Below, piece by piece: positions 1-12,433 of a DNA stretch of 34,258 nt (the first letter of the stretch is position 1; every line of letters begins with the position of its first letter). The DNA comes from a virus, in IMG/VR virus record IMGVR_UViG_3300030333_002402, positions 1 through 34,258 of that record. One strand, 5' to 3'. A program made the position numbers and the translations under genes. The notes under the pieces were generated by a model. That model did no database searches, had not been told where the DNA came from, and saw only the letters and a list, made by a program, of their open reading frames with translations.

Positions 1-38
1 ACAAAAGGTATTAATAATAAAAATAATATCTTTTTCAT
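1..38 (-). CDS. Start of an exported protein (partial, runs off the window)
   Basis: Only the first 12 codons are inside the window. They read M-K-K-I-L-F-L-L-L-I-P-F, a short positive N-terminus followed by an uninterrupted hydrophobic run, which is the n- and h-region of a Sec signal peptide or lipoprotein signal. Its ATG overlaps the stop of the preceding 32-codon gene (TAATG), so the two are probably translationally coupled. The mature part lies outside the window, so no function can be given. That the frame continues is an assumption, because only 38 nt are visible. Confidence 0.55.
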   Translation of the reverse strand, partial: MKKILFLLLIPF

Positions 39-136
39 TATTTACATTTACAGCATTTACCATCTACACAACACCATCCAAAACAAATTATACAATTTGT
101 AAGTTTACATATAAGTTTACATATTTTTTCTTTCAT
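38..136 (-). CDS. 32-aa cysteine-rich miniprotein (9 Cys)
   Basis: This very short gene starts with ATG at 136, four nt after the stop of the nuclease gene, and ends with TAA at 38-40 overlapping the next ATG. The 32-residue product has cysteines at positions 6, 10, 15, 18, 22, 23, 28, 29 and 31, and six lysines. The two ends differ: the N-terminal half is amphipathic with CxxxC and CxxC spacing, and the C-terminus carries CC-x4-CC-x-C. It has no cleavable signal peptide that I can recognise. The Cys pattern could bind metal (zinc or iron-sulfur) or form a disulfide-rich peptide. Tight packing between two genes on the same strand and the stop/start overlap support a real gene, but at 32 codons chance cannot be excluded. 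I recognise no family. Confidence 0.55.
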   Translation of the reverse strand: MKEKICKLICKLTNCIICFGWCCVDGKCCKCK

Positions 137-140
137 ATTT

Positions 141-509
141 TTATCTTTTTCCGCCATGATATTCTACAGCATGACCTTCTTTAATTAATAATTCATTTAC
201 ACTCTCTAAAGTTAATTTCTCTTGACCATCTACAATATCGATGTGTAACTCACCTAAGCATCTACCATATTTTCCTAATCCATGAGATTTTAGTTGTATT
301 GTATTAGCATCTTCCAATAATTGTTTAACTCTATCTTTAGCGGCTAAACCTCTAGCTTTTTCTTCTAAATCTCTTGTTCTTGATTCTGGAGTATTAATCC
401 CCATAAATCTAATTCTTTTTTTAATAGATACATCAAATCCTAAATCTATTTCAGCATCAATAGTGTCACCATCAATAACTCTATCTAATTTTATTTTATA
501 AGTATACAT
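141..509 (-). CDS. Staphylococcal-nuclease-like (thermonuclease) protein
   Basis: This 122-aa protein matches the SNase/TNase fold in order. The Ca-binding/active-site start is V-I-D-G-D-T near residues 11-16. A strand R-I-R-F-M-G-I-N-T-P-E-S follows near residues 32-43 and supplies the catalytic Arg and Glu. K-Y-G-R near residues 80-83 supplies the second Arg, and the C-terminal helix-strand is L-L-I-K-E-G-H-A. All the usual catalytic positions are present, with Asn in place of the common Asp in the xTPE loop. The family cleaves single- and double-stranded DNA or RNA with Ca2+. There is no signal peptide, so it should act in the cytoplasm, for example in host nucleic-acid degradation or as accessory recombination/repair activity; the role is inferred. 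Its ATG overlaps the stop of the upstream thioredoxin-like gene (TAATG). Length is near the minimal size of the domain. Confidence 0.9.
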   Translation of the reverse strand: MYTYKIKLDRVIDGDTIDAEIDLGFDVSIKKRIRFMGINTPESRTRDLEEKARGLAAKDRVKQLLEDANTIQLKSHGLGKYGRCLGELHIDIVDGQEKLTLESVNELLIKEGHAVEYHGGKR

Positions 510-871
510 TAAAAATCACTCATTAATTGATTATCTATTTCTTCTTGTACTTCTTCTTTAGTTGCTAACATTTTGAAACTAAGATCAGCTTGAAATCTAG
601 CAACCTCCTCATCATCTTTAAATATTATTATAGTTGGTACAACAGCTATTTTATATTTTTTTTGATCTTCTGTGTTTTTAGCTACATCTATATAACCTAT
701 AGTTTTACAGTCGTTTAAATCCATAACCCAAGGAACATCATTAGTATTATTCCAACCAGCGTTGAATTGTATTACTTTAATTTGTCCGAAGGTTGCGTTA
801 GACAATAACATAAGGAAAATAACAAGCATAGAGCTAATAAAGAGTTTCCCATTTATATTTAATTTTTTCAT
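509..871 (-). CDS. Exported thioredoxin-fold protein lacking the CxxC site
   Basis: The 120-aa product starts with a positive n-region (MKKLNINGK), a hydrophobic core near residues 11-22, and a likely signal-peptidase region ending around A-T-F-G-Q. The rest follows the thioredoxin pattern: strand I-K-V-I-Q-F-N-A-G-W-N-N where the active-site WCxxC normally sits, strand I-G-Y-I-D-V, helix D-Q-K-K-Y-K-I, the cis-proline strand V-V-P-T-I-I-I-F-K-D, and a C-terminal helix. Trp of the active-site loop is kept, but both redox cysteines are missing; the only Cys lies in N-D-C-K. It is therefore unlikely to be a disulfide oxidoreductase. Thioredoxin-fold proteins without CxxC often serve as binding or chaperone-like proteins. 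Location would be periplasmic or envelope. It sits four nt after the one-TM protein gene and overlaps the nuclease start. Confidence 0.75.
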   Translation of the reverse strand: MKKLNINGKLFISSMLVIFLMLLSNATFGQIKVIQFNAGWNNTNDVPWVMDLNDCKTIGYIDVAKNTEDQKKYKIAVVPTIIIFKDDEEVARFQADLSFKMLATKEEVQEEIDNQLMSDF

Positions 872-875
872 TTAA

Positions 876-1154
876 TTATTGATAAAGTTTGTCTTCTATT
901 TTTTCTATAGACTCTTTGATTTCTTCTACATCTTTTTTTGTGTCCATAATAGTTTGACGTATCATTTGATCTTTCATATCAAACTCCATTCTTGTAATCT
1001 CTGGATCTGGTGGAGCTGGTAATTCTTTAGCCTCAGCTATGTCTGCTTGAAGCATAAACCACATACTAATAATAGTTGCCATCGCAAACCCTATACCTAT
1101 TAACGTTTTAATACTTACATTAAAACCTGTATCTTCATTTAATTCTTTTGCCAT
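876..1154 (-). CDS. Small single-TM protein with C-terminal coiled coil
   Basis: The 92-aa protein has a short polar N-terminus, one predicted membrane segment at about residues 15-37 (from V-S-I-K-T to M-L-Q-A-D), a proline-rich hinge (L-P-A-P-P-D-P), and a charged C-terminal helix with heptad-like Ile/Met/Leu spacing (K-K-D-V-E-E-I-K-E-S-I-E-K-I). This layout fits a small inner-membrane protein that oligomerises through its soluble helix. Holin-like and inner-spanin-like roles are the obvious phage options, but I see no endolysin or outer spanin in the window to support a lysis cassette, so it is left unassigned. It starts one base after the stop of the 98-aa gene and ends four bases before the thioredoxin-like gene. 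Confidence 0.7.
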   Translation of the reverse strand: MAKELNEDTGFNVSIKTLIGIGFAMATIISMWFMLQADIAEAKELPAPPDPEITRMEFDMKDQMIRQTIMDTKKDVEEIKESIEKIEDKLYQ

Positions 1155-1155
1155 T

Positions 1156-1452
1156 TTATCTCATATCCCATTTACCACCAGATTCTCTATACATTCTATC
1201 TCTATCTGATTTTGTTAATTTATCGTAAGTATATCCTTTTTCTTCACTTCCACCGGTAGGCATTGGACCATATTTCTGGCCACGACCAGGTAAATTAGTA
1301 GTAACCATATGCTCTGAATATGGTTTTTCTATATTAGTTTTAACTTGCTTAGAGGTATCTAATCCCGGTCTTTTTGGTATTCTCTTTACTTTTTTATCTT
1401 GTTTTATTGGTGAGTTTCCAAAACCAGAAAACCCGTTCATTGTATATCCCAT
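1156..1452 (-). CDS. Small basic, probably disordered phage protein
   Basis: This 98-aa protein is rich in Lys, Arg, Gly and Pro, with no hydrophobic core, so it is probably largely disordered or needs a partner to fold. Recognisable segments are F-S-G-F-G-N-S-P near the N-terminus, a K/R/P-rich stretch (K-K-V-K-R-I-P-K-R-P), and a C-terminal acidic/basic helix (Y-D-K-L-T-K-S-D-R-D-R-M-Y-R). The start is uncertain: ATG at 1452 gives MGYTMNG, but the second ATG at 1440 (MNGFSGFG) is equally plausible and neither has a Shine-Dalgarno core. I know of no function. It lies 10 nt after the lipoprotein gene and 1 nt before the membrane protein gene. Confidence 0.7.
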   Translation of the reverse strand: MGYTMNGFSGFGNSPIKQDKKVKRIPKRPGLDTSKQVKTNIEKPYSEHMVTTNLPGRGQKYGPMPTGGSEEKGYTYDKLTKSDRDRMYRESGGKWDMR

Positions 1453-1462
1453 AATTGTTTTT

Positions 1463-2563
1463 TTAAAATATTACGTAATTTAATCCTAGTTTAAAATCGT
1501 ACCATTCACGATTCCAATATTTATTGTATTTTCCTTCTAAAAAATAACCTAAACTTTTATTTTGTTTTATACCGTAGATAAAACCAAAAGAATAATCATA
1601 CCACTGGTCATCTGTAATATAATTATGATAACTAAATTCACTACCGTCATTATAATGGTAAGGTAATAAATTACCCCAAGCATGTAACCATGTTTTCTTA
1701 GAGTATTTATAATAATCAAAACCCATAACCATAGAGTGTTGTATTATTTTAGATAATTCATTTCTTTTTCTTTCGGTATAATCAGATAACACTTTTGGTA
1801 TAACTACAGCTTCCCAAACCTCAGAACTAGTAGCAACTATATTACCCGCTGGGTCATAGTACTCGTTGCTATACACATCAACCGTGTAACCTTCTTGCAA
1901 AGCTAAATAGGTGTAATGAATGTTTCCGTTTGATAACAACCATTCATCAAGAGGATCGTAACCATAAGGCTCAGCCAATCTATGGGCAGCCCCTATATTA
2001 AAAGATAAATTTTTACCTTTTCTATATCTATATCTTTCCGACGCCTCAAAGTATTCTACATCCGCAAAACCATCTTGTAAATATTCTAGTTTTAAAGCAA
2101 AAAAGTTTACACACAAACCACTAGGACAACCATCATCAGAGCTAAATCTAATAAAATGATGTTGATCCATATAATCTACACCTTCTTGTCTTTTATAATC
2201 TACTTCAAAAAGATATTCAACTCCTTTAACTTTACCTACAGTAGCCGCATCACTATAGTTTGATTCGGTTCCATCATAAAATGTTTGTGCTTTGTTCTCA
2301 TATCCAAACCTTGCTATCTTACGTAAACCAATAGTAAAATTATAATCATAAGGAGTTGAAATAGTTTGTGTAGATAAACCATTACCCACAGAAAATACTT
2401 CAACATCAGACAATGATGTTCCACCGTTCACAGCGGCATAGAATGTAGAAAACTTTAAAAGTTTTTTAATATCTATATTTGGATTTGTTTGTGAACAACA
2501 TTTTTTTGGAGCTGTACAAGCTGTTAAAATAATTGTTAATAATATTATTAGTTTTTTCACCAT
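1463..2563 (-). CDS. Outer-membrane beta-barrel-like lipoprotein
   Basis: The 366-aa protein begins M-V-K-K, a hydrophobic stretch, and the lipobox L-T-A-C with Cys16 as the expected lipidated residue; two more cysteines follow closely (K-K-C-C). The remainder consists of alternating polar/aromatic beta strands. The last third is typical of outer-membrane barrels: W-Y-D-Y-S-F-G-F-I-Y-G, L-G-Y-F-L-E-G-K-Y-N-K-Y-W and the final Y-D-F-K-L-G-L-N-Y-V-I-F, ending in Phe as barrel-assembly signals usually do. A phage gene with this design suggests insertion into the host outer membrane, for example to alter adsorption or exclude superinfection. It could instead be a virion-associated beta protein, but a lipobox argues against that. 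The acidic Bacteroidota lipoprotein export signal is not seen after Cys16, so it may face the periplasm. It starts 30 nt after the giant protein gene ends. Confidence 0.75.
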   Translation of the reverse strand: MVKKLIILLTIILTACTAPKKCCSQTNPNIDIKKLLKFSTFYAAVNGGTSLSDVEVFSVGNGLSTQTISTPYDYNFTIGLRKIARFGYENKAQTFYDGTESNYSDAATVGKVKGVEYLFEVDYKRQEGVDYMDQHHFIRFSSDDGCPSGLCVNFFALKLEYLQDGFADVEYFEASERYRYRKGKNLSFNIGAAHRLAEPYGYDPLDEWLLSNGNIHYTYLALQEGYTVDVYSNEYYDPAGNIVATSSEVWEAVVIPKVLSDYTERKRNELSKIIQHSMVMGFDYYKYSKKTWLHAWGNLLPYHYNDGSEFSYHNYITDDQWYDYSFGFIYGIKQNKSLGYFLEGKYNKYWNREWYDFKLGLNYVIF

Positions 2564-2593: not shown

Positions 2594-5500
2594 TTAGTCA
2601 TGATAGTAACACAGTCCGCTTTTGTTACTTGTTTGCATTTTACATCTTTTACCATCATTCTTTATTTTTTTACATTGAGATTTTTTACCATCAACTCTTT
2701 GTTCCACTTTTTCATGTATTGTGCATCTCATTCCGGCTTTAGGTACAACTATACTACATCTTTTACCTTTAGAGTTTATATTAGCACAAGTGTATTCTTT
2801 CTTTTTTTCACCTTTTTCCTCAGCTTCTTTTTCTTCTTTAATCTCTTCTTTTATAGTATTATCTATTTCTAATTGTTTAAGAGCTTCTTCTTCTTTTTTC
2901 TTTTCTTCTCTTTTTTCTTTAGCTTTTTGTTTCTTTTCTTCTTTAACAATTGTCTTAACTAATTCTATTTTATCACTTTTAACATTTAAATCCCAACGAT
3001 TCCAACCTAACATTAAAGCTATTCTTTGCCAAGTAGCATTATCTTCATTAAGAGATTCTCTAATATTTTTAGTTTTATTAATAATTCTATCCGTAGGAAC
3101 GTTTGTAAAAGCGGACACAACATTACCTATAGCATCCCAAATTGGATTATCAATATCAAACGTATCCATTTTATTAATAACATCTCTATTATAGTTCCAA
3201 GATCTTCCAGCACTTCTAAGTTTTCTAATTTTAGATCCTATAGGTGGAGATAGTTGAAGTCCCTCAACAACAACATTATCAAAATCTCGATTCCAACCTT
3301 TACCTTCTTCTTCACCAAATTTTATTATCATATTTTTAATAGTTGAAATCACAGCACCACCAACGCCTGTACCTCTTAATATACTATCAAGTATACCATT
3401 ATACAATCTTTGCATCTTCTTTTCTTCTGTTTTAGCTCTTTTTTCATCGTCTTCATCATCGTCAAATGCCAATGCAAATAGTGCTGATTGTAGACTAAAG
3501 AAGATTACATTTTGTACAGCTCCATAATATAATATTCTTGATATATTAGTTTTCCAATCACCTCTACCATTAACTAAATCTGATATTGCTTTTTTAGTTA
3601 ATCTCATATACTGCATAGGAGTGTTTTGGAATGCTAATATTAATCTACCAAGAGTAGATGCTTGTTGTTGTGATATTAAATCAGGCCTAGAAGACTGTTG
3701 TGTTTCTTCTGCAATCTCTTGGAAATCTTCAAAAGCTTTTGTTTCAGCTTCTTTTTGACTTAAACCTTCTTTTAAATATGTATTAACTCTATTTCTATAA
3801 AAAGTAGCACCACCAGATGATATAGCAAAACTATCCGCTATTTGTGTTGGTAAGAAACCTTTTTGTAATAAATAGTTTAACGCAGCCATAACTGGATTTT
3901 TTGATCTACCAACAGCTTCTGTTAATTCAGCAGTATTAACATCTGTCTTTAATCCTTTACGCCTCTGTTTCAACATATCTGAATTGAATAAGAATGTAAA
4001 GTCTTTCCAGAATTGTTTTTGATTAGCAAAAGCCATAGCAGCTTTAGCTATATTATTATCACCCCAATTTATAAAGTTAACAGTAGATAAAGTCTGTAAT
4101 ACAGCTGACCTAGCATTAAAGAACATGATAGCACCAACTGAATTGTTTATCCAATTTTGGAAAGCATTAACAAGTCTATTACTACCTGTAACTCTATTTG
4201 TACCTTTTTCCATACGGTACAACATATCTTCTAAAGCTTCTCTGAAATTAGCTCCATATATAGCTTCAATTTTATTTAAATTCTTTTCAGAAAATATTAT
4301 ATCTTTATTTTCTATCCATTCAGCTAAAAATTCTGCTCTATTAACTTTATTAGCTCCTTCTAAATCTGACATTATATTTCCAACTAACCATTCTCTACTT
4401 GGTTCAACATATCCTTCTGGTCTTTTAGATATTAGACTTAAAACACCAGCGTAATCTTTTAATCTTTGATCATTGTTAATCACCTCTAAAAGCATTGCTT
4501 TATCAGATTTAGACAAACCAGGTATTTCAAAACCAGCTTTATCCCATAAATAAACTCTTACAGCATCTGAATAACGGAAATCTTTTTGTCCTTCTATTTT
4601 TTTAGTTAACTTTTTACGAACATCAGGCATAGCTTTTCGCAAAGCATTATAATCATTCCACATTCTTTGTTTAGCCTCATTAAGCTCTCTATATCCTCTA
4701 GCAAAAGGATCTAATAAAGCTTTTTTAAACCAAGCCATTTGTAAATCACCTTTTTTACCTTTAGCTAGAAATCTATATAATAAACCTTTAAAATCTTCAG
4801 CAGACGGTGGAATAAAAAAGTCAAACCTACCCTTACCTTTACCTCTTAATTTTGCTTTAGCAGCAGAGAATTCTTTTTCAGATTGCATACCAGTTGTTTC
4901 TTCTAATATGCTATTAAACTCTCCATCCATTGTTTCACTAAATTTAATTTTAGCTTGTTGAGTAGGTGATTTAATATCAGATTGATTCAACATGTTTTTA
5001 ACTGCAGGTATGTTTCTTATTGATTCAGTTGTTTTTATTTTAACTTTACGAGTTTTTGGTTTTACCACTTCAAAATCAAGCTGTGTTCCACTACCATATT
5101 CGTATATATCAGTTTTCCAACCTAGTTTCTTACCTAACTTATCCATTAAAATAGTATATACTCTAGCTCTACTTTTATCTTTAGTCAAAGCGCTAAAACC
5201 AACTGTTTCTATATTAGGTTTTTGTTTTATTACATCTAACAATCCATTATAAACAATACCTAAAACTTTAAATTGACTACCAGTACCAGTCATTTCTTGA
5301 GTTAGACCATATTCTGTAACCAAATCAAATTCTAATTCGTAATTAGTATTATTTAAATCTGTAGGGTATAATGTTATTTTATAGTTCTTACCATCTACAT
5401 TAAAATTAGTAGTCATGTAACCAATACTATCTTCTTTCCAGTTTAAATTCTGTTTAGTTGATAAGCTACTTTCACTAAATTTAACTTTAGCCTGCTGAAC

Positions 5501-8500
5501 TTTTGATTTAACATCAAATTGATCAAGCATGTTTTGTACAGCTTGGACATTCTGTAAAGCATCGTCGGCAAAATAGAAATCATTATAACCTTCACCAACC
5601 TTATCAGCTATCCACAGTGCTTTAGCTTCTGATGTAGAGTTTCCTAATCCTGTTATATTTTTCAAAGGTATATTTAAACCGTTAGCTTTTAAGAAATCAA
5701 ATATAGGTTTTTGTGCCGCTGGTGGTCTAGCGGTCAATACAAACATATTTTTAGGACCAAATTTCTTTTGTAATTTTAAAGCTTTATTAAATAGAGGTGC
5801 TAGTTTACCCTTAACAACTTTATTAAATTCTGAAAAATCAAACTTATAACCTTTACCTAATAAATTTTGATATGTAGCAGCGTATTGTTCAGCATTTAAA
5901 GTTCCTGTTGTTCCGTCTGGAGCTGTAAATCTAACTAATGATTCAGTTGTAGCTAAAGTATCATCAAAATCTAAAACAGTAATACCTTTTGGTGTTTCTG
6001 AAAACTTAATTGTTCTTGCATTTTTAATAGCATTACTTATAACTTTAGCATCATCTAGTTTTTCTTTAGAAACAGTTTCTACTGTTGTTTCAGAAAACCT
6101 AACTATTTCAGCTATTGATTCAGAAATTAAATTTTCCCCATTTAAATTTATATTTTTATTCGTTGCTCCATAAAAAGAATTTATATTTAAATCTTTAATG
6201 TTGTTTAAAACAAACATCCTAGCTAAATCTTGATCGCTAGTAGTAGTTAGTTCTTGATCTTGTTCCCAAGAGTTTATTTCAGCTCCAAATATTTGAGTAT
6301 AAGATCTTATAATATTTTTAAATTTATTTCTAAAAGTTTCTCTTGCGTCTAAATCATTAGGATCTTTTTGTAGCTTTTCAACTGTGTTTAATAGTTCTAT
6401 AGTAGATTCTCTAAGCATGTTAGAACTAGGTTTAGCATGTTCTCCTTTCATTCTTAAGTGATCTACTATGTAACTATTTAAAACTTTTTCCAAATATTGA
6501 TCAAATAGTTCGCCGTTTTTAATAGCTCTCCATTTTTTTAAACCTCCTTCTTTAGAATTTAATATTGTTAATATTTTTCCAATTCTTTCATTTGCTGATC
6601 TAACAGCCGCTTTGTAATCTGGATGATTGTCATTTATTTTAACATCACTAAGTTTGTGTTTTTTAGCATCAGCCTCAGAGGCAACTCCAACTTTATCTCC
6701 TTTTTTATATTCAAAACCATCAATTTTTTTATCTTTAGTGGCTATACCTACGTAAGGAGCTTGAGTTTTTGAATACCACTGCACACCGGTCACTGTTGTT
6801 AATCCTCTTTGAGCTTTAGTATTACTCGATGCTGACTCTTGAACCCTGATTAGTCCAGCTTTAGTTTCAATAGAAATATCTGGATTAGCTAATATTTCTA
6901 ATATTTTTTCATGAATATATTGATTTGCTAAAGGATTATTAATATTCGCTGCTTCAACCTCTTTTATTAGTTCAGCTTTATATTTTTTTATTTTTTCATT
7001 TACATTTAGTTGAGAAAACTGTATATCTCTTATTTTTTTAGCTAAACCATAACCTGAATTAATTATTCTAATAGCATTTACATCAAAAGGTAAATTCTCT
7101 TGATCTTTTTCTTTTATTCTTTTTTCAAACTTATCATTTATTTCTTTATAACGATCTTTTGGTATTACACTATACGTTCTTAGTAAATTACTAGCATCGT
7201 AATCTCCTTCTTTATCTATCTTTTCAGCGCCTTTTAAACCAAAATATGTTTTACCAAGAGCTTTTATAAATGAAGGTGGTAAATAGTCCATTAATTCTAA
7301 TATACCATCAGCATATTGTTGTTGACCAACTTCATCACCCGTTTTGTCTTTTGAATATAAATTAACTATAGGATTTTTTTTGTTAAAATATTTTAATAAT
7401 GGCATTTTAAATTTAGTGGGGTTTTCTGCAAATTTTTCATGGAAACCATCAGCTTCTAATTCCATTATAGTTGCTGGATCAACACTATTACTATATACCT
7501 CTTGTTCAAATTCATTTGTACCCCAACCATGATTATTTGCCGCGGCAACTATAATAGGTATATCCCTTTTAAATTTTTTATGACTAACCATAGACGCTGC
7601 CTCGTTCACGTTATCACTAGCTGTTTCACTAAATCTTGCACTAGGATTTCTTTTAATAGCTTCAGTTAATTTAGCACTTTCTTTAGTTACTCCTTCTGGT
7701 AATACACCTGGATGAAAAACAGCATCTAAACCTAATTCATTAACAAGAGCGTTTACCAATGATTTATATTGAGTCTCTCTACCTTTTATAAATATATCTT
7801 GAAACTGTTGAGGCGTCATCTCTTTTAACGCCCAAGTCTCATTACCACCTTTTTCATTCATAACAAACGAACCCTCTAAAGATGCTTGTGTTTCTGCTGA
7901 TTCTTGAACGCCTAATCTACCTAAACTTTCGACTAAAGCATTTTCACCTTTAAATCTATTAGCATATTTTACACCAACTAAAGTTTGTATTTCATTTTGT
8001 TTAGTTTCTAATAACTTTTTAAATTTATCAGATTTTTGTGTACCTATAAGTTTTTTAACTTTCTTAGCAAACTCTGTTTTTAAGAATGCTTTTTCTAAAG
8101 CTTGTCTAAACTTTTTCTCTGTTTTCTTGTTTGTTAAAACTTCATCAAAGTTTATAGGGCCTAATATATTTCTAACCTCTTCTAACACTTCGTTATATAA
8201 AGCACTATTATCTTTTATACCTAATATTCTTCTTGTTTTACCAGTTTCAACTTCTTGGCCAGCTTTATCATTTTCAATTTCTTTTAATTGAGCTAATAAA
8301 TCATCTGCTCTACGTTGAGTAATTTGACCAGCATCAAGCATACTTTGAACTTTTTCTCTAGCTGCCTCAAAGTTAATACCAACGTCTTCACCTGCTTCAT
8401 AAGCATTGTCAAGAGCGTCACTTCTTTTCATTATACCTTTACCACCGTATTCTTGTACAGATTCTATACCAAGTCTTCTAGCTAAGCTTTGTGCTCTTTT

Positions 8501-11500
8501 CCAACCTCTATTTACTATAAACTTTTCAACACCTTGCCTACCATCATACTCTCGTATAACCATGTTGTTTAATTCTGATTTAAGAGATTCTCTATAATCA
8601 TTTCTACTTATATCTCCTCTAGCGTCTATAGCGATTGGATCATATAGTTTTTTGGTTAAAGTTTCTGCTATTTTATTCACTGGTGTTTTTATAGCGTCAA
8701 TTACACTAGCTTCTAACCTCATAGATCTTTGGTCTTTTATAGGGTCAACACCTCTTTCTTTAGCTATTCTATCCATTTCAGCTTGACGAGTTCTTATGTC
8801 TTTAACATCTTCAAGAACGTTTTGATCATTAATCTCTGTTTCAGAGAATTTTAATTCACCTATTTTAGCTCCACCTGGTCCAGCAATAGCTAATATAGAT
8901 TCTCTAACTTCACCAGCTTTAACATCTGCAGCGTAATCTATAATAAAGTTTCTTACACTATTACCATCTTTAAATTCTATATTATCATAACCTCTTAATT
9001 TAAACAAGTTTATAAATGGTTCTTTAATCCTGTTAAGAACATCTTTCTTTGGGTTTATTTGATTTAACCTTATAGCATCACTATAATAAGTTATATATTC
9101 ATGCGCGTATTGTTCAAAAGCTTTTTCACCAATTATATTATCGTCTTTATCTCTTATGTATCTTTCAGTACCACCATCCATTCTCTTATCTAAAACAGCT
9201 CTTTCTTTTGACGAAAGTTTACCAAGAAAATCTTTTATTAGTTTAACACCTTCTTCAGTTATAGTAACCTCTACGTCATTGCCTTGTTTGTCTTTAACTA
9301 TTCTGACATCACCGTGAAACGTGCTTTCAGTAATAGCGTGTAATACTTCGTGTGAAGCTACACTTATAGCCCCTGTTTCTTTAGCTCTAGTACGATTAGA
9401 AACCCACATACCACCTGGTGTGAAAAACCCATCTTTACTTCTAATAACATGAGAAGGAGTTTGTGTATCACCAGTTTCACGTACGTATATTTCATAGAAT
9501 TCTTGAGGTGTTTGTGCAATATTAAAACCAGTTTTTACACCTCTTTCTTGTAATTTTTCAGTAGTCTTTTTTGAAACCTCCTCATCTTGACGCATGTTTA
9601 TTTCGTCAAGCATGTCATTCTTTTGTTTTTCTAATTTATAGTATTCGTCAGTAATTTCTTTTATAAGATTTTGTTTGGCTTCAGTAGATATAGATCCGTC
9701 TTCTTTGATATTTCTTATAAGCTCTAGTGTTTCAACAAATTTAATATCAGTATCAAACACCAATCTTCTTTGTTCAGGTGTCATTTCATCAATTCTATCT
9801 ATAGCTTTAGTTAATACCTTTGTATTATCAGCTACAATACGAGCAATTCTTTCTTTTAATATTTTTCTAGTTTCTGGCGCTAAATTAGGATTTTTAAGTT
9901 GACTTTCTATTTCGCGTATTTTTTTAGCACTATCAGTTAATTTAGAAAGTTCACTTTTTGGTAAAAACGGATATACAACTTGTTTAAATACTCTAGGTGC
10001 TTTTATAATACGTTCCATTAACAACCCATTAAACGCAGCTTCATCTATACCCTTGTATATACTTATTTTATCTCCAGCTAATATCATACCAAAGTTTTCA
10101 CCCATAGTGGCTAAAACCTCACTACCCGACTCTAAAGTCGCACCTGTCACACCTGTTAATATATTTTTAGGATTAAGAAGATTACGCATACCTGCTCTAA
10201 AACCATTTCTTAATATATTTTTTCCTCCAGCCGCTTCAATTAAAGGTAAAGTAACAAATCTTTCTGTTAAATATTCCGCGCCAAAAGTAACTCCACTAGC
10301 AATATACATATCCCACATAGAGTAACTACCTCCATGTTTGTTTTTTTCTAGCATTTCTTCAAATTTCATACCAGCGGCTGAACTAGATAAAGTGATTAAT
10401 CCTACCTGCGGTGCTGTTACTAAAGCTGCTAATTGAGGTATAAAATCAGCTGAAGCACCAACTATATATTCTCCCCAATCATAAAGACTACCTCCTTTAG
10501 CATCATCCCAAGTTGTTCTTTCTTGAACACCTTTTAATCTTTGTTCTTGAAAGTTGTTAATAGCAGTACGTACTTCGTTTCTATCTATCGGTATTACACC
10601 AAACAGTGGAGATGCATTTTCCATTGTTTCAAAAACAGCTTGGGTTACTTCATTGATATTACCATTCTCATCAATATACCCGTTTTCAACAAGAAAATCA
10701 TTCCATATAGGTTCAAATATTAGACGTCTAGGAGCTTTGGTAACATGAAAAACAGCAGACTCAACACCCATAGCTAAATCAACCCCTTTTGTTTTGAGAT
10801 ATGTTGCAAATTGAGCAACCTCACTATGGTTTCTACTTAAACTATTTATAAAAATATCTAAATCTCCAGAATCTTCTATTTGATCTAACAAATCATCGTT
10901 TAATAATTGATAAGACCTAACCATAGTATTGGTTTTATCTAAAATAGAATTGTAATTACTATAATCATATTCAAGTTCGTTTTTCCATTCCTTACCATCA
11001 GTATCGATATACGGTGTATTATACTGCTCTACTAATTGATTGTGATTTGTTACAGCGTTTTGATATGACGTAATATCTTCTTTATTTTCATTTAACAATA
11101 AATGGTACTCATCATAAATAACTTTATATTTACTATAGTTTTCTTCATCTAATCTTCCTTCTTCATCTGTTAATTCAGAAAAAGACTGCATTTTATTTTG
11201 TAGATCTTCTAAATCATTTAAAACACTAGGAATATCTTTATATTTTTCAAGTTCATTATTAGACTTTTCAAATTTATTTTTCCAATTTAATTCTTTTTCT
11301 TTAATTTCGTCTCTTTTTAAAATTAAATCATCTTTATTTAAATTGATAAAATCTTCTTGTATTTGTAAAGTTTGTTTAGTTTTAACTATTTTTGGTGGTT
11401 CAATCCTCTTACCATCTACAGTTGTTTTATAACCTATCTCATCATAATAATCTTTTAATTTATCTAAGAATATTCTTTGTTCTTCTGGTAAAGCGCTGAT

Positions 11501-12433
11501 ATTAGCCTTGTCTAATATCCATTTAAAATCTCGAAATGTTTTAGCTCCAGATACAAACGTGTCTCCCCAATCTATATTATCTTCTATCCATTGTGTTAGT
11601 CCACGTTTTATAAACTTAGCTTTTTCATCTCTTAAATATAATTCTTTAGCAAGTTCAATTCTTCCTTCTTCAGAAGGTGATTGAAAATTTTGTTTAAAAG
11701 CTTCATCTGCTTTTCTTAAATAACTAGCAAAAACTGAATTTTGATTATCTTCTCGTAACTTTTTATAATTAGTTATTTCCTGGTCATAAGCGTTTCTAGA
11801 GTCTGCTGCTGTATATTCACGTATATTACCCTCGGCATCCATAACATTTTTAGGTAAAACCGTAGAGCTTGGAGCAGTAGGCATGTCCATGTTTTCAATA
11901 TCTAGATAATCATTAACTTCTTTATTTATTTGTTTTTCAATTTTACTAACATCATCTTTGTCGGTTTGAAACAAATCCATAAATTCTTTAGCACTTACAC
12001 TATTTATATCTTTGTCAATTCTAGATTTTATATCTTTTTTTACCTTTTTAATAAAGCTAGTAGGAACATCTTTACTACTAACTACAGTTTTAGTTGTTTC
12101 ACCTGTTATCTTATTAAAGGTATTTTTAATATAATGACTTTTTGGATCGTAAACTTTTTCTTTTGTTCCGTCGGTTTTTTCAACAGTATAATATGGTTCT
12201 GGATCATATTCGTAAGAAACATCTTCTGCTAAAGGAGATGTACCTTCAAGTGGGGCTTTAACTACTTGTTTAACAACTTTATTATTACTGTTGTTAATTT
12301 TATTCATTAAATCATTAAACGGATCAAATTTTTTCTCCTCTTCTTCTTTTTTTCGTAGAACCTCAGCTATAGCCTCTGGTGATTCACCATTAGCTTCCAT
12401 TTGATCGATAAGTAAAATAGATTCTTCAGACAT
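2594..12433 (-). CDS. Giant polyvalent virion-type protein (3,279 aa): HEXXH, HAD, GNAT-like and zinc-knuckle modules
   Basis: This is the largest gene of the window, in one open frame with no sign of frameshift. Layout: residues 1-560 charged and helical; about 560-830 with hydrophobic stretches (around 650-690 and 705-730) that could contact a membrane; H-E-V-L-H at 1028-1032, a gluzincin-like zinc-peptidase signature, with H-E-Y-I-T-Y-Y-S-D-A-I downstream as a possible third ligand; helical regions to about 2140; a HAD-like phosphatase region with D-F-D-D-T from D2155, L-T-A-R-P, and F-A-D-D at 2288-2291; a GNAT-like region at about 2320-2455 (T-G-T-G-S-Q-F, F-S-A-L-T-K-D-K-S-R); a conserved C-terminal helical block with further hydrophobic stretches near 2768 and 2978; a long Lys/Glu helix; and two Cys3His knuckles at 3216-3278. 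(K/R/Q)FS(E/Q) motifs punctuate the middle. The architecture fits phage 'polyvalent' proteins thought to be packaged and ejected with DNA. The position after the internal-virion-type genes agrees. Enzymatic activities are predicted, not shown. Confidence 0.85.
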   Translation of the reverse strand: MSEESILLIDQMEANGESPEAIAEVLRKKEEEEKKFDPFNDLMNKINNSNNKVVKQVVKAPLEGTSPLAEDVSYEYDPEPYYTVEKTDGTKEKVYDPKSHYIKNTFNKITGETTKTVVSSKDVPTSFIKKVKKDIKSRIDKDINSVSAKEFMDLFQTDKDDVSKIEKQINKEVNDYLDIENMDMPTAPSSTVLPKNVMDAEGNIREYTAADSRNAYDQEITNYKKLREDNQNSVFASYLRKADEAFKQNFQSPSEEGRIELAKELYLRDEKAKFIKRGLTQWIEDNIDWGDTFVSGAKTFRDFKWILDKANISALPEEQRIFLDKLKDYYDEIGYKTTVDGKRIEPPKIVKTKQTLQIQEDFINLNKDDLILKRDEIKEKELNWKNKFEKSNNELEKYKDIPSVLNDLEDLQNKMQSFSELTDEEGRLDEENYSKYKVIYDEYHLLLNENKEDITSYQNAVTNHNQLVEQYNTPYIDTDGKEWKNELEYDYSNYNSILDKTNTMVRSYQLLNDDLLDQIEDSGDLDIFINSLSRNHSEVAQFATYLKTKGVDLAMGVESAVFHVTKAPRRLIFEPIWNDFLVENGYIDENGNINEVTQAVFETMENASPLFGVIPIDRNEVRTAINNFQEQRLKGVQERTTWDDAKGGSLYDWGEYIVGASADFIPQLAALVTAPQVGLITLSSSAAGMKFEEMLEKNKHGGSYSMWDMYIASGVTFGAEYLTERFVTLPLIEAAGGKNILRNGFRAGMRNLLNPKNILTGVTGATLESGSEVLATMGENFGMILAGDKISIYKGIDEAAFNGLLMERIIKAPRVFKQVVYPFLPKSELSKLTDSAKKIREIESQLKNPNLAPETRKILKERIARIVADNTKVLTKAIDRIDEMTPEQRRLVFDTDIKFVETLELIRNIKEDGSISTEAKQNLIKEITDEYYKLEKQKNDMLDEINMRQDEEVSKKTTEKLQERGVKTGFNIAQTPQEFYEIYVRETGDTQTPSHVIRSKDGFFTPGGMWVSNRTRAKETGAISVASHEVLHAITESTFHGDVRIVKDKQGNDVEVTITEEGVKLIKDFLGKLSSKERAVLDKRMDGGTERYIRDKDDNIIGEKAFEQYAHEYITYYSDAIRLNQINPKKDVLNRIKEPFINLFKLRGYDNIEFKDGNSVRNFIIDYAADVKAGEVRESILAIAGPGGAKIGELKFSETEINDQNVLEDVKDIRTRQAEMDRIAKERGVDPIKDQRSMRLEASVIDAIKTPVNKIAETLTKKLYDPIAIDARGDISRNDYRESLKSELNNMVIREYDGRQGVEKFIVNRGWKRAQSLARRLGIESVQEYGGKGIMKRSDALDNAYEAGEDVGINFEAAREKVQSMLDAGQITQRRADDLLAQLKEIENDKAGQEVETGKTRRILGIKDNSALYNEVLEEVRNILGPINFDEVLTNKKTEKKFRQALEKAFLKTEFAKKVKKLIGTQKSDKFKKLLETKQNEIQTLVGVKYANRFKGENALVESLGRLGVQESAETQASLEGSFVMNEKGGNETWALKEMTPQQFQDIFIKGRETQYKSLVNALVNELGLDAVFHPGVLPEGVTKESAKLTEAIKRNPSARFSETASDNVNEAASMVSHKKFKRDIPIIVAAANNHGWGTNEFEQEVYSNSVDPATIMELEADGFHEKFAENPTKFKMPLLKYFNKKNPIVNLYSKDKTGDEVGQQQYADGILELMDYLPPSFIKALGKTYFGLKGAEKIDKEGDYDASNLLRTYSVIPKDRYKEINDKFEKRIKEKDQENLPFDVNAIRIINSGYGLAKKIRDIQFSQLNVNEKIKKYKAELIKEVEAANINNPLANQYIHEKILEILANPDISIETKAGLIRVQESASSNTKAQRGLTTVTGVQWYSKTQAPYVGIATKDKKIDGFEYKKGDKVGVASEADAKKHKLSDVKINDNHPDYKAAVRSANERIGKILTILNSKEGGLKKWRAIKNGELFDQYLEKVLNSYIVDHLRMKGEHAKPSSNMLRESTIELLNTVEKLQKDPNDLDARETFRNKFKNIIRSYTQIFGAEINSWEQDQELTTTSDQDLARMFVLNNIKDLNINSFYGATNKNINLNGENLISESIAEIVRFSETTVETVSKEKLDDAKVISNAIKNARTIKFSETPKGITVLDFDDTLATTESLVRFTAPDGTTGTLNAEQYAATYQNLLGKGYKFDFSEFNKVVKGKLAPLFNKALKLQKKFGPKNMFVLTARPPAAQKPIFDFLKANGLNIPLKNITGLGNSTSEAKALWIADKVGEGYNDFYFADDALQNVQAVQNMLDQFDVKSKVQQAKVKFSESSLSTKQNLNWKEDSIGYMTTNFNVDGKNYKITLYPTDLNNTNYELEFDLVTEYGLTQEMTGTGSQFKVLGIVYNGLLDVIKQKPNIETVGFSALTKDKSRARVYTILMDKLGKKLGWKTDIYEYGSGTQLDFEVVKPKTRKVKIKTTESIRNIPAVKNMLNQSDIKSPTQQAKIKFSETMDGEFNSILEETTGMQSEKEFSAAKAKLRGKGKGRFDFFIPPSAEDFKGLLYRFLAKGKKGDLQMAWFKKALLDPFARGYRELNEAKQRMWNDYNALRKAMPDVRKKLTKKIEGQKDFRYSDAVRVYLWDKAGFEIPGLSKSDKAMLLEVINNDQRLKDYAGVLSLISKRPEGYVEPSREWLVGNIMSDLEGANKVNRAEFLAEWIENKDIIFSEKNLNKIEAIYGANFREALEDMLYRMEKGTNRVTGSNRLVNAFQNWINNSVGAIMFFNARSAVLQTLSTVNFINWGDNNIAKAAMAFANQKQFWKDFTFLFNSDMLKQRRKGLKTDVNTAELTEAVGRSKNPVMAALNYLLQKGFLPTQIADSFAISSGGATFYRNRVNTYLKEGLSQKEAETKAFEDFQEIAEETQQSSRPDLISQQQASTLGRLILAFQNTPMQYMRLTKKAISDLVNGRGDWKTNISRILYYGAVQNVIFFSLQSALFALAFDDDEDDEKRAKTEEKKMQRLYNGILDSILRGTGVGGAVISTIKNMIIKFGEEEGKGWNRDFDNVVVEGLQLSPPIGSKIRKLRSAGRSWNYNRDVINKMDTFDIDNPIWDAIGNVVSAFTNVPTDRIINKTKNIRESLNEDNATWQRIALMLGWNRWDLNVKSDKIELVKTIVKEEKKQKAKEKREEKKKEEEALKQLEIDNTIKEEIKEEKEAEEKGEKKKEYTCANINSKGKRCSIVVPKAGMRCTIHEKVEQRVDGKKSQCKKIKNDGKRCKMQTSNKSGLCYYHD
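2597..2788 (-). other. Tandem Cys3His zinc knuckles at the C-terminus of the giant protein
   Basis: Two units with identical spacing, C-x9-C-x10-C-x2-H, occupy residues 3216-3240 and 3254-3278. Both contain G-K-R-C at the second Cys (K-G-K-R-C and D-G-K-R-C), and both end in C-x2-H. The identical spacing argues for a tandem duplication of a small metal-binding fold. Similar short Cys/His domains are frequent in Bacteroidota and their phages, where function is unknown; nucleic-acid binding is a reasonable guess. They are separated from the rest of the protein by a long Lys/Glu-rich helix. Confidence 0.75.
4931..5005 (-). repeat. 25-codon linker repeat, copy 2 (after the GNAT-like module)
   Basis: This copy encodes A-V-K-N-M-L-N-Q-S-D-I-K-S, P-T-Q-Q-A-K-I, K-F-S-E-T. 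It aligns without gaps to copy 1 at 5468-5542, with 17 of 25 residues identical by eye and clear similarity at the DNA level. It lies directly downstream of the GNAT-like segment of the giant protein, ending in the KFSE motif at residue K2497. Confidence 0.85.
5468..5542 (-). repeat. 25-codon linker repeat, copy 1 (between HAD-like and GNAT-like modules)
   Basis: This copy encodes A-V-Q-N-M-L-D-Q-F-D-V-K-S, K-V-Q-Q-A-K-V, K-F-S-E-S. It immediately follows the fourth HAD motif (F-A-D-D-A-L-Q-N-V) and precedes the GNAT-like segment. Together with copy 2 it brackets that segment, as would be left by recombination-mediated insertion or duplication of a module. The first residues of this copy also belong to the terminal helix of the HAD-like region. 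Confidence 0.85.

Follow-up and report, generated by a model that had tools for sequence, protein, structure and literature searches.

An uncultured virus in IMG/VR (record IMGVR_UViG_3300030333_002402) closes its late operon with a run of seven small, envelope-directed genes, four of which recur together in related viruses and form the subject of this analysis. The window, meaning the whole stretch of 34,258 nucleotides that was analysed, comprises bases 1-34258 of the 34791-base record, and all seven genes lie on its minus strand. The four recurring genes are gene A (1463-2563, 366 aa), predicted to encode an outer-membrane barrel; gene C (876-1154, 92 aa), encoding an N-terminal transmembrane helix and a charged, coiled-coil-like tail; gene D (509-871, 120 aa), encoding an exported protein with a predicted thioredoxin fold and no CxxC motif; and gene K, whose 5′ end (1-38, the first 12 codons) carries the signal peptide start MKKILFLLLIPF. 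Between them lie three accessory genes: B (1156-1452, 98 aa), for a small basic and probably disordered protein; E (141-509, 122 aa), for an SNase-type nuclease; and F (38-157), a Cys-rich open reading frame (ORF) of 32-39 aa. The genes are separated by 10 nt (A/B), 1 nt (B/C) and 4 nt (C/D), or overlap by 1 nt (D/E), by 17 nt (E/F) and through a TAATG (F/K). An earlier sequence-only reading had described these seven tightly packed genes as an envelope-directed set other than a standard lysis cassette, and that description is borne out in the position, size, spacing and strand of every gene.

The arrangement recurs beyond chance. IMG/VR was scanned with A, B and C, and relatives were confirmed at 432 viral stretches for A and at 442 for C. 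The best 80 loci each for A and C were gathered and all of their ORFs clustered into a gene-order table, which yielded 51 non-redundant viral loci in which C is flanked by 5 kb or more upstream and 6 kb or more downstream (the “roomy” loci). A, C, D and K are all present in 51/51 of these loci, which are the closest matches and not a random sample. Because retrieval was through A or C, the presence of these two genes was conditioned in turn; that of D and K was not. The order is A-C-D-K in 43 loci, C-D-K-A in 4, K-A-C-D in 3 and A-C-D-K-A in 1. The start of D precedes the end of C by a median of 1 nt and lies within 20 nt of it in 106/111 cases. Only A, C, D and K are constant; B, E and F are optional accessories. 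The sequence-only reading had proposed one conserved functional unit of seven genes; the conservation holds for four of them, in several orders, while the other three are individually absent from many relatives, which is what that reading had named as counting against it, with the E family present in only 14/51 roomy loci, the F family in only 10/51, and B almost unique to the window.

The K proteins of the relatives are secreted mosaics, about 600-1,370 aa long, and many of them contain a MAM domain (1e-18 to 1e-23). The 12 residues that begin the window’s K also open K of a close relative (L011:12199), and the window’s K, which had been read as the start of an exported protein, is probably of the same type. 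A hydrophobic, signal-like start (by a hydropathy criterion) and one of two C-terminal tail types are found on K in 51/51 roomy loci. By sequence pattern, 17 of these tails are classical and 34 short. The classical form is the type A sorting domain of the type IX secretion system (T9SS): TIGR04183 and PF18962 score above their curated cut-offs at the extreme C-terminus of K in L007, L114, L047, L119, L146, L151 and L163. The first of these relatives, whose C and A are 99% and 91% identical to those of the window, has a MAM domain as well as the sorting domain above both of these cut-offs. The sorting domain occurs in 14/26 whole contigs with the unit, and zero control genomes scored over the cut-off.

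The short tail, found on about two thirds of complete K proteins, takes the form ITDLLGRPxKxxKNxLLFYIYxDGxVxKKLIK (e.g., L013:17449-17583) and escapes both PF18962 and TIGR04183. As a query it matches 41/41 sampled genomes of one Flavobacteriales family, at 3-46 places each. Among 17 ORFs of this family that were inspected, it always occupies the extreme C-terminus, and 14/17 have a signal peptide. Genomes of the family (including G027) encode GldK in 7/8 cases, sorting domains in all 8 (33-62 each) and PorP/SprF in 5/5. Segments of K share 35-60% identity with secreted proteins encoded in these short-tail genomes. Since the tail sits on secreted proteins of the host type and pieces of K resemble such proteins, K looks like a host-type secreted mosaic within a phage operon. 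The short tail itself is presumably a T9SS signal and may represent an undescribed class of such signals. This marine family, with its GldK and PorP/SprF, is a candidate host, though it may not be the true one. The N-terminal type of K showed no clear signal when compared with the fibre or small late genes.

The product of gene A is predicted to be an exported outer-membrane beta-barrel. Its AlphaFold2 (AF2) model (predicted local distance difference test, pLDDT, 72.7; predicted template modelling score, pTM, 0.68) is all-beta with about 12 barrel strands, and the best solved structural matches are outer-membrane barrels such as OmpG, CymA and NanC, the matches in the PDB being to generic barrels only. 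The structural search also gave one viral model, A0A516LKJ4 (TM 0.68, 21% identity). For comparison, barrels of the PorV/FadL type have 14 strands. The C-terminal residue is F in 97/108 homologues. The barrel proposed by the sequence-only reading is therefore kept as a model-based prediction, while the lipobox assigned alongside it is not a family feature, a lipobox-like motif being present in 50/108 homologues. A near-invariant YWNRE turn (mean column identity 0.97) and a 75-residue insert (0.78) are conserved as much as the strands; both would face outward if A, like ordinary barrels, has its C-terminus in the periplasm. A signal-peptide variant, SC-x-APKKCCSQ, is common to A and K (52/108 A and 2/69 K proteins; window 2525-2500, L007:12931, L161:10882), as if signal regions had been exchanged between the two genes.

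Gene C encodes, as had been read from the letters, a protein with one hydrophobic helix (peak at residues 17-35) and a coil. The transmembrane-like peak is present in 109/110 homologues, and 29 columns are invariant across 40 sequences. The layout, an N-terminal transmembrane helix followed by what would be a periplasmic coil, resembles that of an inner-membrane spanin subunit (i-spanin). Matches of C to phrog_1009, phrog_473 and other PHROG families were driven by the coil, weak and scattered, and were not used. In T4-like contigs (L120:10287-10592, L146:10509-10862), a second protein with a transmembrane helix and coil (cluster 34) lies between C and D and is perhaps a duplicate or partner of C.

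The product of D is modelled as a thioredoxin fold and predicted to be redox-dead, in keeping with the earlier description of an exported thioredoxin-like protein without CxxC. It scores 1.4e-4 against Thioredoxin PF00085, just short of the cut-off of that family; its profile matches a PDB thioredoxin at 9e-8, and its AF2 model (pLDDT 79) gives a VIA Z of 12.3 to thioredoxin 6mos. At the place of CxxC, [WF]N..N is found in 109/109 homologues (N41-x-x-N44 in the window), with CxxC elsewhere in only 7. The C-terminus is also conserved among the homologues.

Neither A (tblastn, two queries) nor C was found in 50,697 catalogued phage genomes at the sensitivity used, and D gave only a weak generic thioredoxin match there. 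Among 84,980 bacterial and archaeal genomes, A has four matches: two on contigs with phage genes (L166, L168), one on a short contig with the unit (L167) and one fragment of 42 residues (L169). D has one strong match in these genomes, in the metagenome-assembled genome of L168, and weak thioredoxin matches in 148 Flavobacteriales genomes. On these sequence comparisons, A, C and D appear to be virus-specific families, A and C having no known family and D being recognisable by its thioredoxin fold only.

The phages that carry the unit are diverse. The window’s portal (35-54% identity) and major capsid protein (41-46%) have counterparts in Elemovirus, Cellulophaga phage phi38:1-type phages, Maribacter phage Panino and an uncultured podovirus. 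Of the annotated relatives, MW202828, Panino and elemoE were inspected, and none has a comparable cassette annotated beyond its last giant late gene, although the elemoE record stops at that point. Among 26 unit-bearing contigs, a portal 67-75% identical to that of the window is present in 9 and one of 21-23% identity in 2; in the other 15, some of them 84-95 kb long, no portal relative was detectable. T4-like nucleotide-metabolism and replication genes were seen in L120, L121 and L168, by ORF reading and not by a database test. The A proteins of L121 and L132 still share 64-72% identity with the window’s, even though the portals of these contigs are undetected or only 23% identical, which suggests that the set has been transferred between phage lineages. 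The four gene orders and the 15/26 contigs lacking a portal relative argue for a set that acts on the host, independently of any one virion. Within the lineage of the window, A and D track the genome backbone. The A-D Mantel correlation of 0.63 (0.60 given Z, the giant gene that flanks A) was dropped as proof of joint evolution because A and D show equal or stronger correlations with the ribonucleotide reductase (RNR) and other backbone genes (A-RNR 0.81, D-RNR 0.75, A-r11 0.74). It is ordinary shared inheritance, with Z as the outlier.

Z (2594-12433, minus strand) lies outside the unit and encodes a 3279-aa late protein, presumed to be virion-associated; a homologue adjoins the unit in 37/51 roomy loci. 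Two Cys-rich, zinc-ribbon-like repeats (CxxxxxxGxRCxxxxxxxxxxCxxH) lie at its C-terminal end (2594-2790) and are present in L166 too. Of the accessory genes, B had a single weak local match and zero confirmed relatives in viral contigs, in the same search as for A and C, and was rejected as a unit member for lack of a confirmed viral homologue. Relatives encode other, mostly unrelated basic proteins between D and K, and basic proteins occur in 29/51 roomy loci. In many relatives (L013:11716-14220, L007:11722-12445) these form runs that include a DUF6321 protein and a PAP2 phosphatase, and they have in common an N-terminal motif like SPxKK or NPxKK, also seen in the window’s B (GNSPIKQ), which could be a targeting tag. 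E, which matches PF00565 (6e-11) and the phrog_452 endonuclease (1e-37), is an SNase-domain protein and a predicted nuclease, as the sequence-only reading had it. F is 39 aa counted from its first ATG; from the second it is the 32-aa protein with nine Cys of that reading. PADLOC defence models gave only a partial SNase-domain match to E (4.7e-6), with no match to A, B, C, D or K. L007 (19335-19754) and L013 (19765-20163) have, on the opposite strand, a second small gene resembling an outer-membrane barrel (PF13505-like, 1.5e-4), which adjoins the ribonucleotide reductase and a protein with two transmembrane segments.

The explanation that we favour, at about even confidence, is that the phage uses A, C, D and K as one unit, which displays K on the infected cell by way of the host T9SS. 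K would be made late with a Sec signal peptide and would cross the inner membrane, after which the host T9SS would recognise its C-terminal tail and move it over the outer membrane. A would be the barrel in the outer membrane, D a redox-dead, thioredoxin-fold binding protein in the periplasm, and C an inner-membrane protein with a periplasmic coil. We infer that these three act on K; together they could hold, deliver or anchor it, in the manner of host operons that combine a cargo, a shuttle barrel and a tether. The displayed mosaic adhesin would most likely alter what binds the dying cell; for example, other phages or the phage’s own progeny could be kept off the cell and its debris. The likeliest purpose, at a guess, is superinfection exclusion or progeny protection, with lysis and adhesion as serious rivals. 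The roles that the sequence-only reading had put forward, superinfection exclusion or receptor masking, are likewise a guess. The fuller version, in which A, D and C span the outer membrane, periplasm and inner membrane as a trans-envelope apparatus that captures K from the host T9SS and fixes it on the cell, and which is shared by unlike lineages of marine-Flavobacteriales phages, is put forward more tentatively.

Several observations weigh against display through the T9SS. The window’s K is readable for 12 codons only, and the T9SS tails were seen in relatives. The tail type of K shows no signal against the sequence of A, C or D (p 0.16 to 0.58). The fold of A matches that of the T9SS protein PorV (chain 8gl6_F, Z 9.0) no better than those of many barrels with which it ties. 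A has no match to the PorP/SprF family TIGR03519 in NCBIfam at E up to 0.1. Cargo of type A is normally served by the host’s general PorV and requires no barrel of its own (PMC12618676).

The neighbourhood of the unit keeps a role in lysis open, because recognised lysis genes lie near it in 33/51 roomy loci. These are M15 endolysins (phrog_894, 8e-30; median distance 2.2 kb), holins (phrog_3427, 5e-31; 0.7 kb) and, in L168, an amidase endolysin directly after D. With an endolysin and/or holin so placed, the unit is likely timed with lysis, yet the set is not an ordinary lysis cassette. It has been considered that A, C and D make up a complex, so far unrecognised, which disrupts the outer membrane and replaces spanins in the lysis of Bacteroidota, with C as the inner and A as the outer partner and K as a passenger. 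The topology of C, which fits the definition of an i-spanin (PMC6139136), the nearby M15 endolysins or phrog_3427-like holins and the failure to recognise a separate spanin among the genes examined agree with this. However, the unit lacks a conserved lipoprotein of the outer-membrane (o-spanin) kind, A being a predicted 360-aa barrel with its lipobox-like motif in under half of homologues; spanin matches in the PHROG search of the cassette proteins reached only E 0.19 and 0.34; and C would extend only some 55 residues into the periplasm. The presence of K in every roomy locus would also go unexplained, and in the T4-like contigs L120 and L121 the unit stands beside nucleotide-metabolism genes. 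A spanin substitute is thus judged unlikely.

Equally doubtful is the proposal that K is an adhesin which attaches infected cells to their neighbours or to particles and thereby lets progeny emerge near new hosts, with A, C and D aiding secretion only. K does combine MAM domains with host-like secreted modules, and its N-terminal part is freely swapped between phages (similarity correlates at r 0.01 with Z and 0.10 with A), as would be expected of a ligand-binding part. The swapping fits receptor masking or evasion equally well, however, and K is without a known adhesion ligand. That K is instead a virion-attached fibre, its signal-like start and T9SS tail being relics of host-derived domains, seems very improbable. 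In the lineage of the window, K directly precedes small 140-aa genes and fibre-like genes, but K retains the start and either of the two tails throughout the roomy loci, the unit occurs with unlike virion gene sets, and fibre assembly is cytoplasmic.

Display of K through the host T9SS would have parallels in the hosts. Operons of Flavobacterium johnsoniae and Porphyromonas gingivalis combine a T9SS cargo with a shuttle or anchor barrel and, in some cases, with a periplasmic tether (PMC12618676, PMC9143113). As in operons of cargo with PorP/SprF and PorE, the gene for an adhesin-like cargo, K, stands next to those for an outer-membrane barrel and an envelope protein of the periplasm. The host cargo, however, has type B signals, whereas K ends in either a type A domain or the short tail of host type; A falls outside the PorP/SprF family by hidden Markov model; and the phage unit, whose genes are viral, adds an inner-membrane coil and a redox-dead thioredoxin. 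The likeness would appear to be one of organisation only, because A fails PorP/SprF membership and the tail type does not follow A.

Among phages, Cryophage encodes proteins with T9SS type A sorting domains, which its report calls a unique occurrence (PMC7468147), and ORFs with T9SS domains have been reported near crAss-BACON genes (PMC6949934). The Cryophage cargo, unlike K, consists of variable single genes (an endoglucanase, a GH39 and a PA14 protein), and a linked barrel, coil or thioredoxin gene is not described in that part of the report (PMC7468147). Superinfection-exclusion lipoproteins of the phage T5 Llp type are also phage proteins, made late or early, of the outer membrane that alter adsorption, possibly a shared role; Llp is a single small lipoprotein, in contrast to a four-gene unit with an exported T9SS protein (PMC9586334). 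Two-component spanins share with the unit an inner-membrane helix with a periplasmic coil and nearby lysis genes, but the unit lacks their conserved outer-membrane lipoprotein partner and has a barrel, a thioredoxin fold and T9SS cargo (PMC6139136). The literature searched yielded only the reports on Cryophage and crAss-BACON, and no description of a conserved four-gene unit in which A, C and D are virus-specific. Phage T9SS cargo alone is known; what is new, as far as could be found, is the four-gene unit in hundreds of uncultured viruses of Flavobacteria-like bacteria.

The analysis defines three protein families, A, C and D, of no known function, and shows a degenerate thioredoxin that is kept invariant in phages. 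The T9SS sorting tails are offered as a marker by which uncultured viruses could be linked to flavobacterial hosts. To our knowledge, little is otherwise known of how phages of Bacteroidota cross or alter the outer membrane. The unit would give hundreds of uncultured, probably marine phages a common and testable takeover step, in which a secretion system specific to Bacteroidota is used to alter the cell surface.

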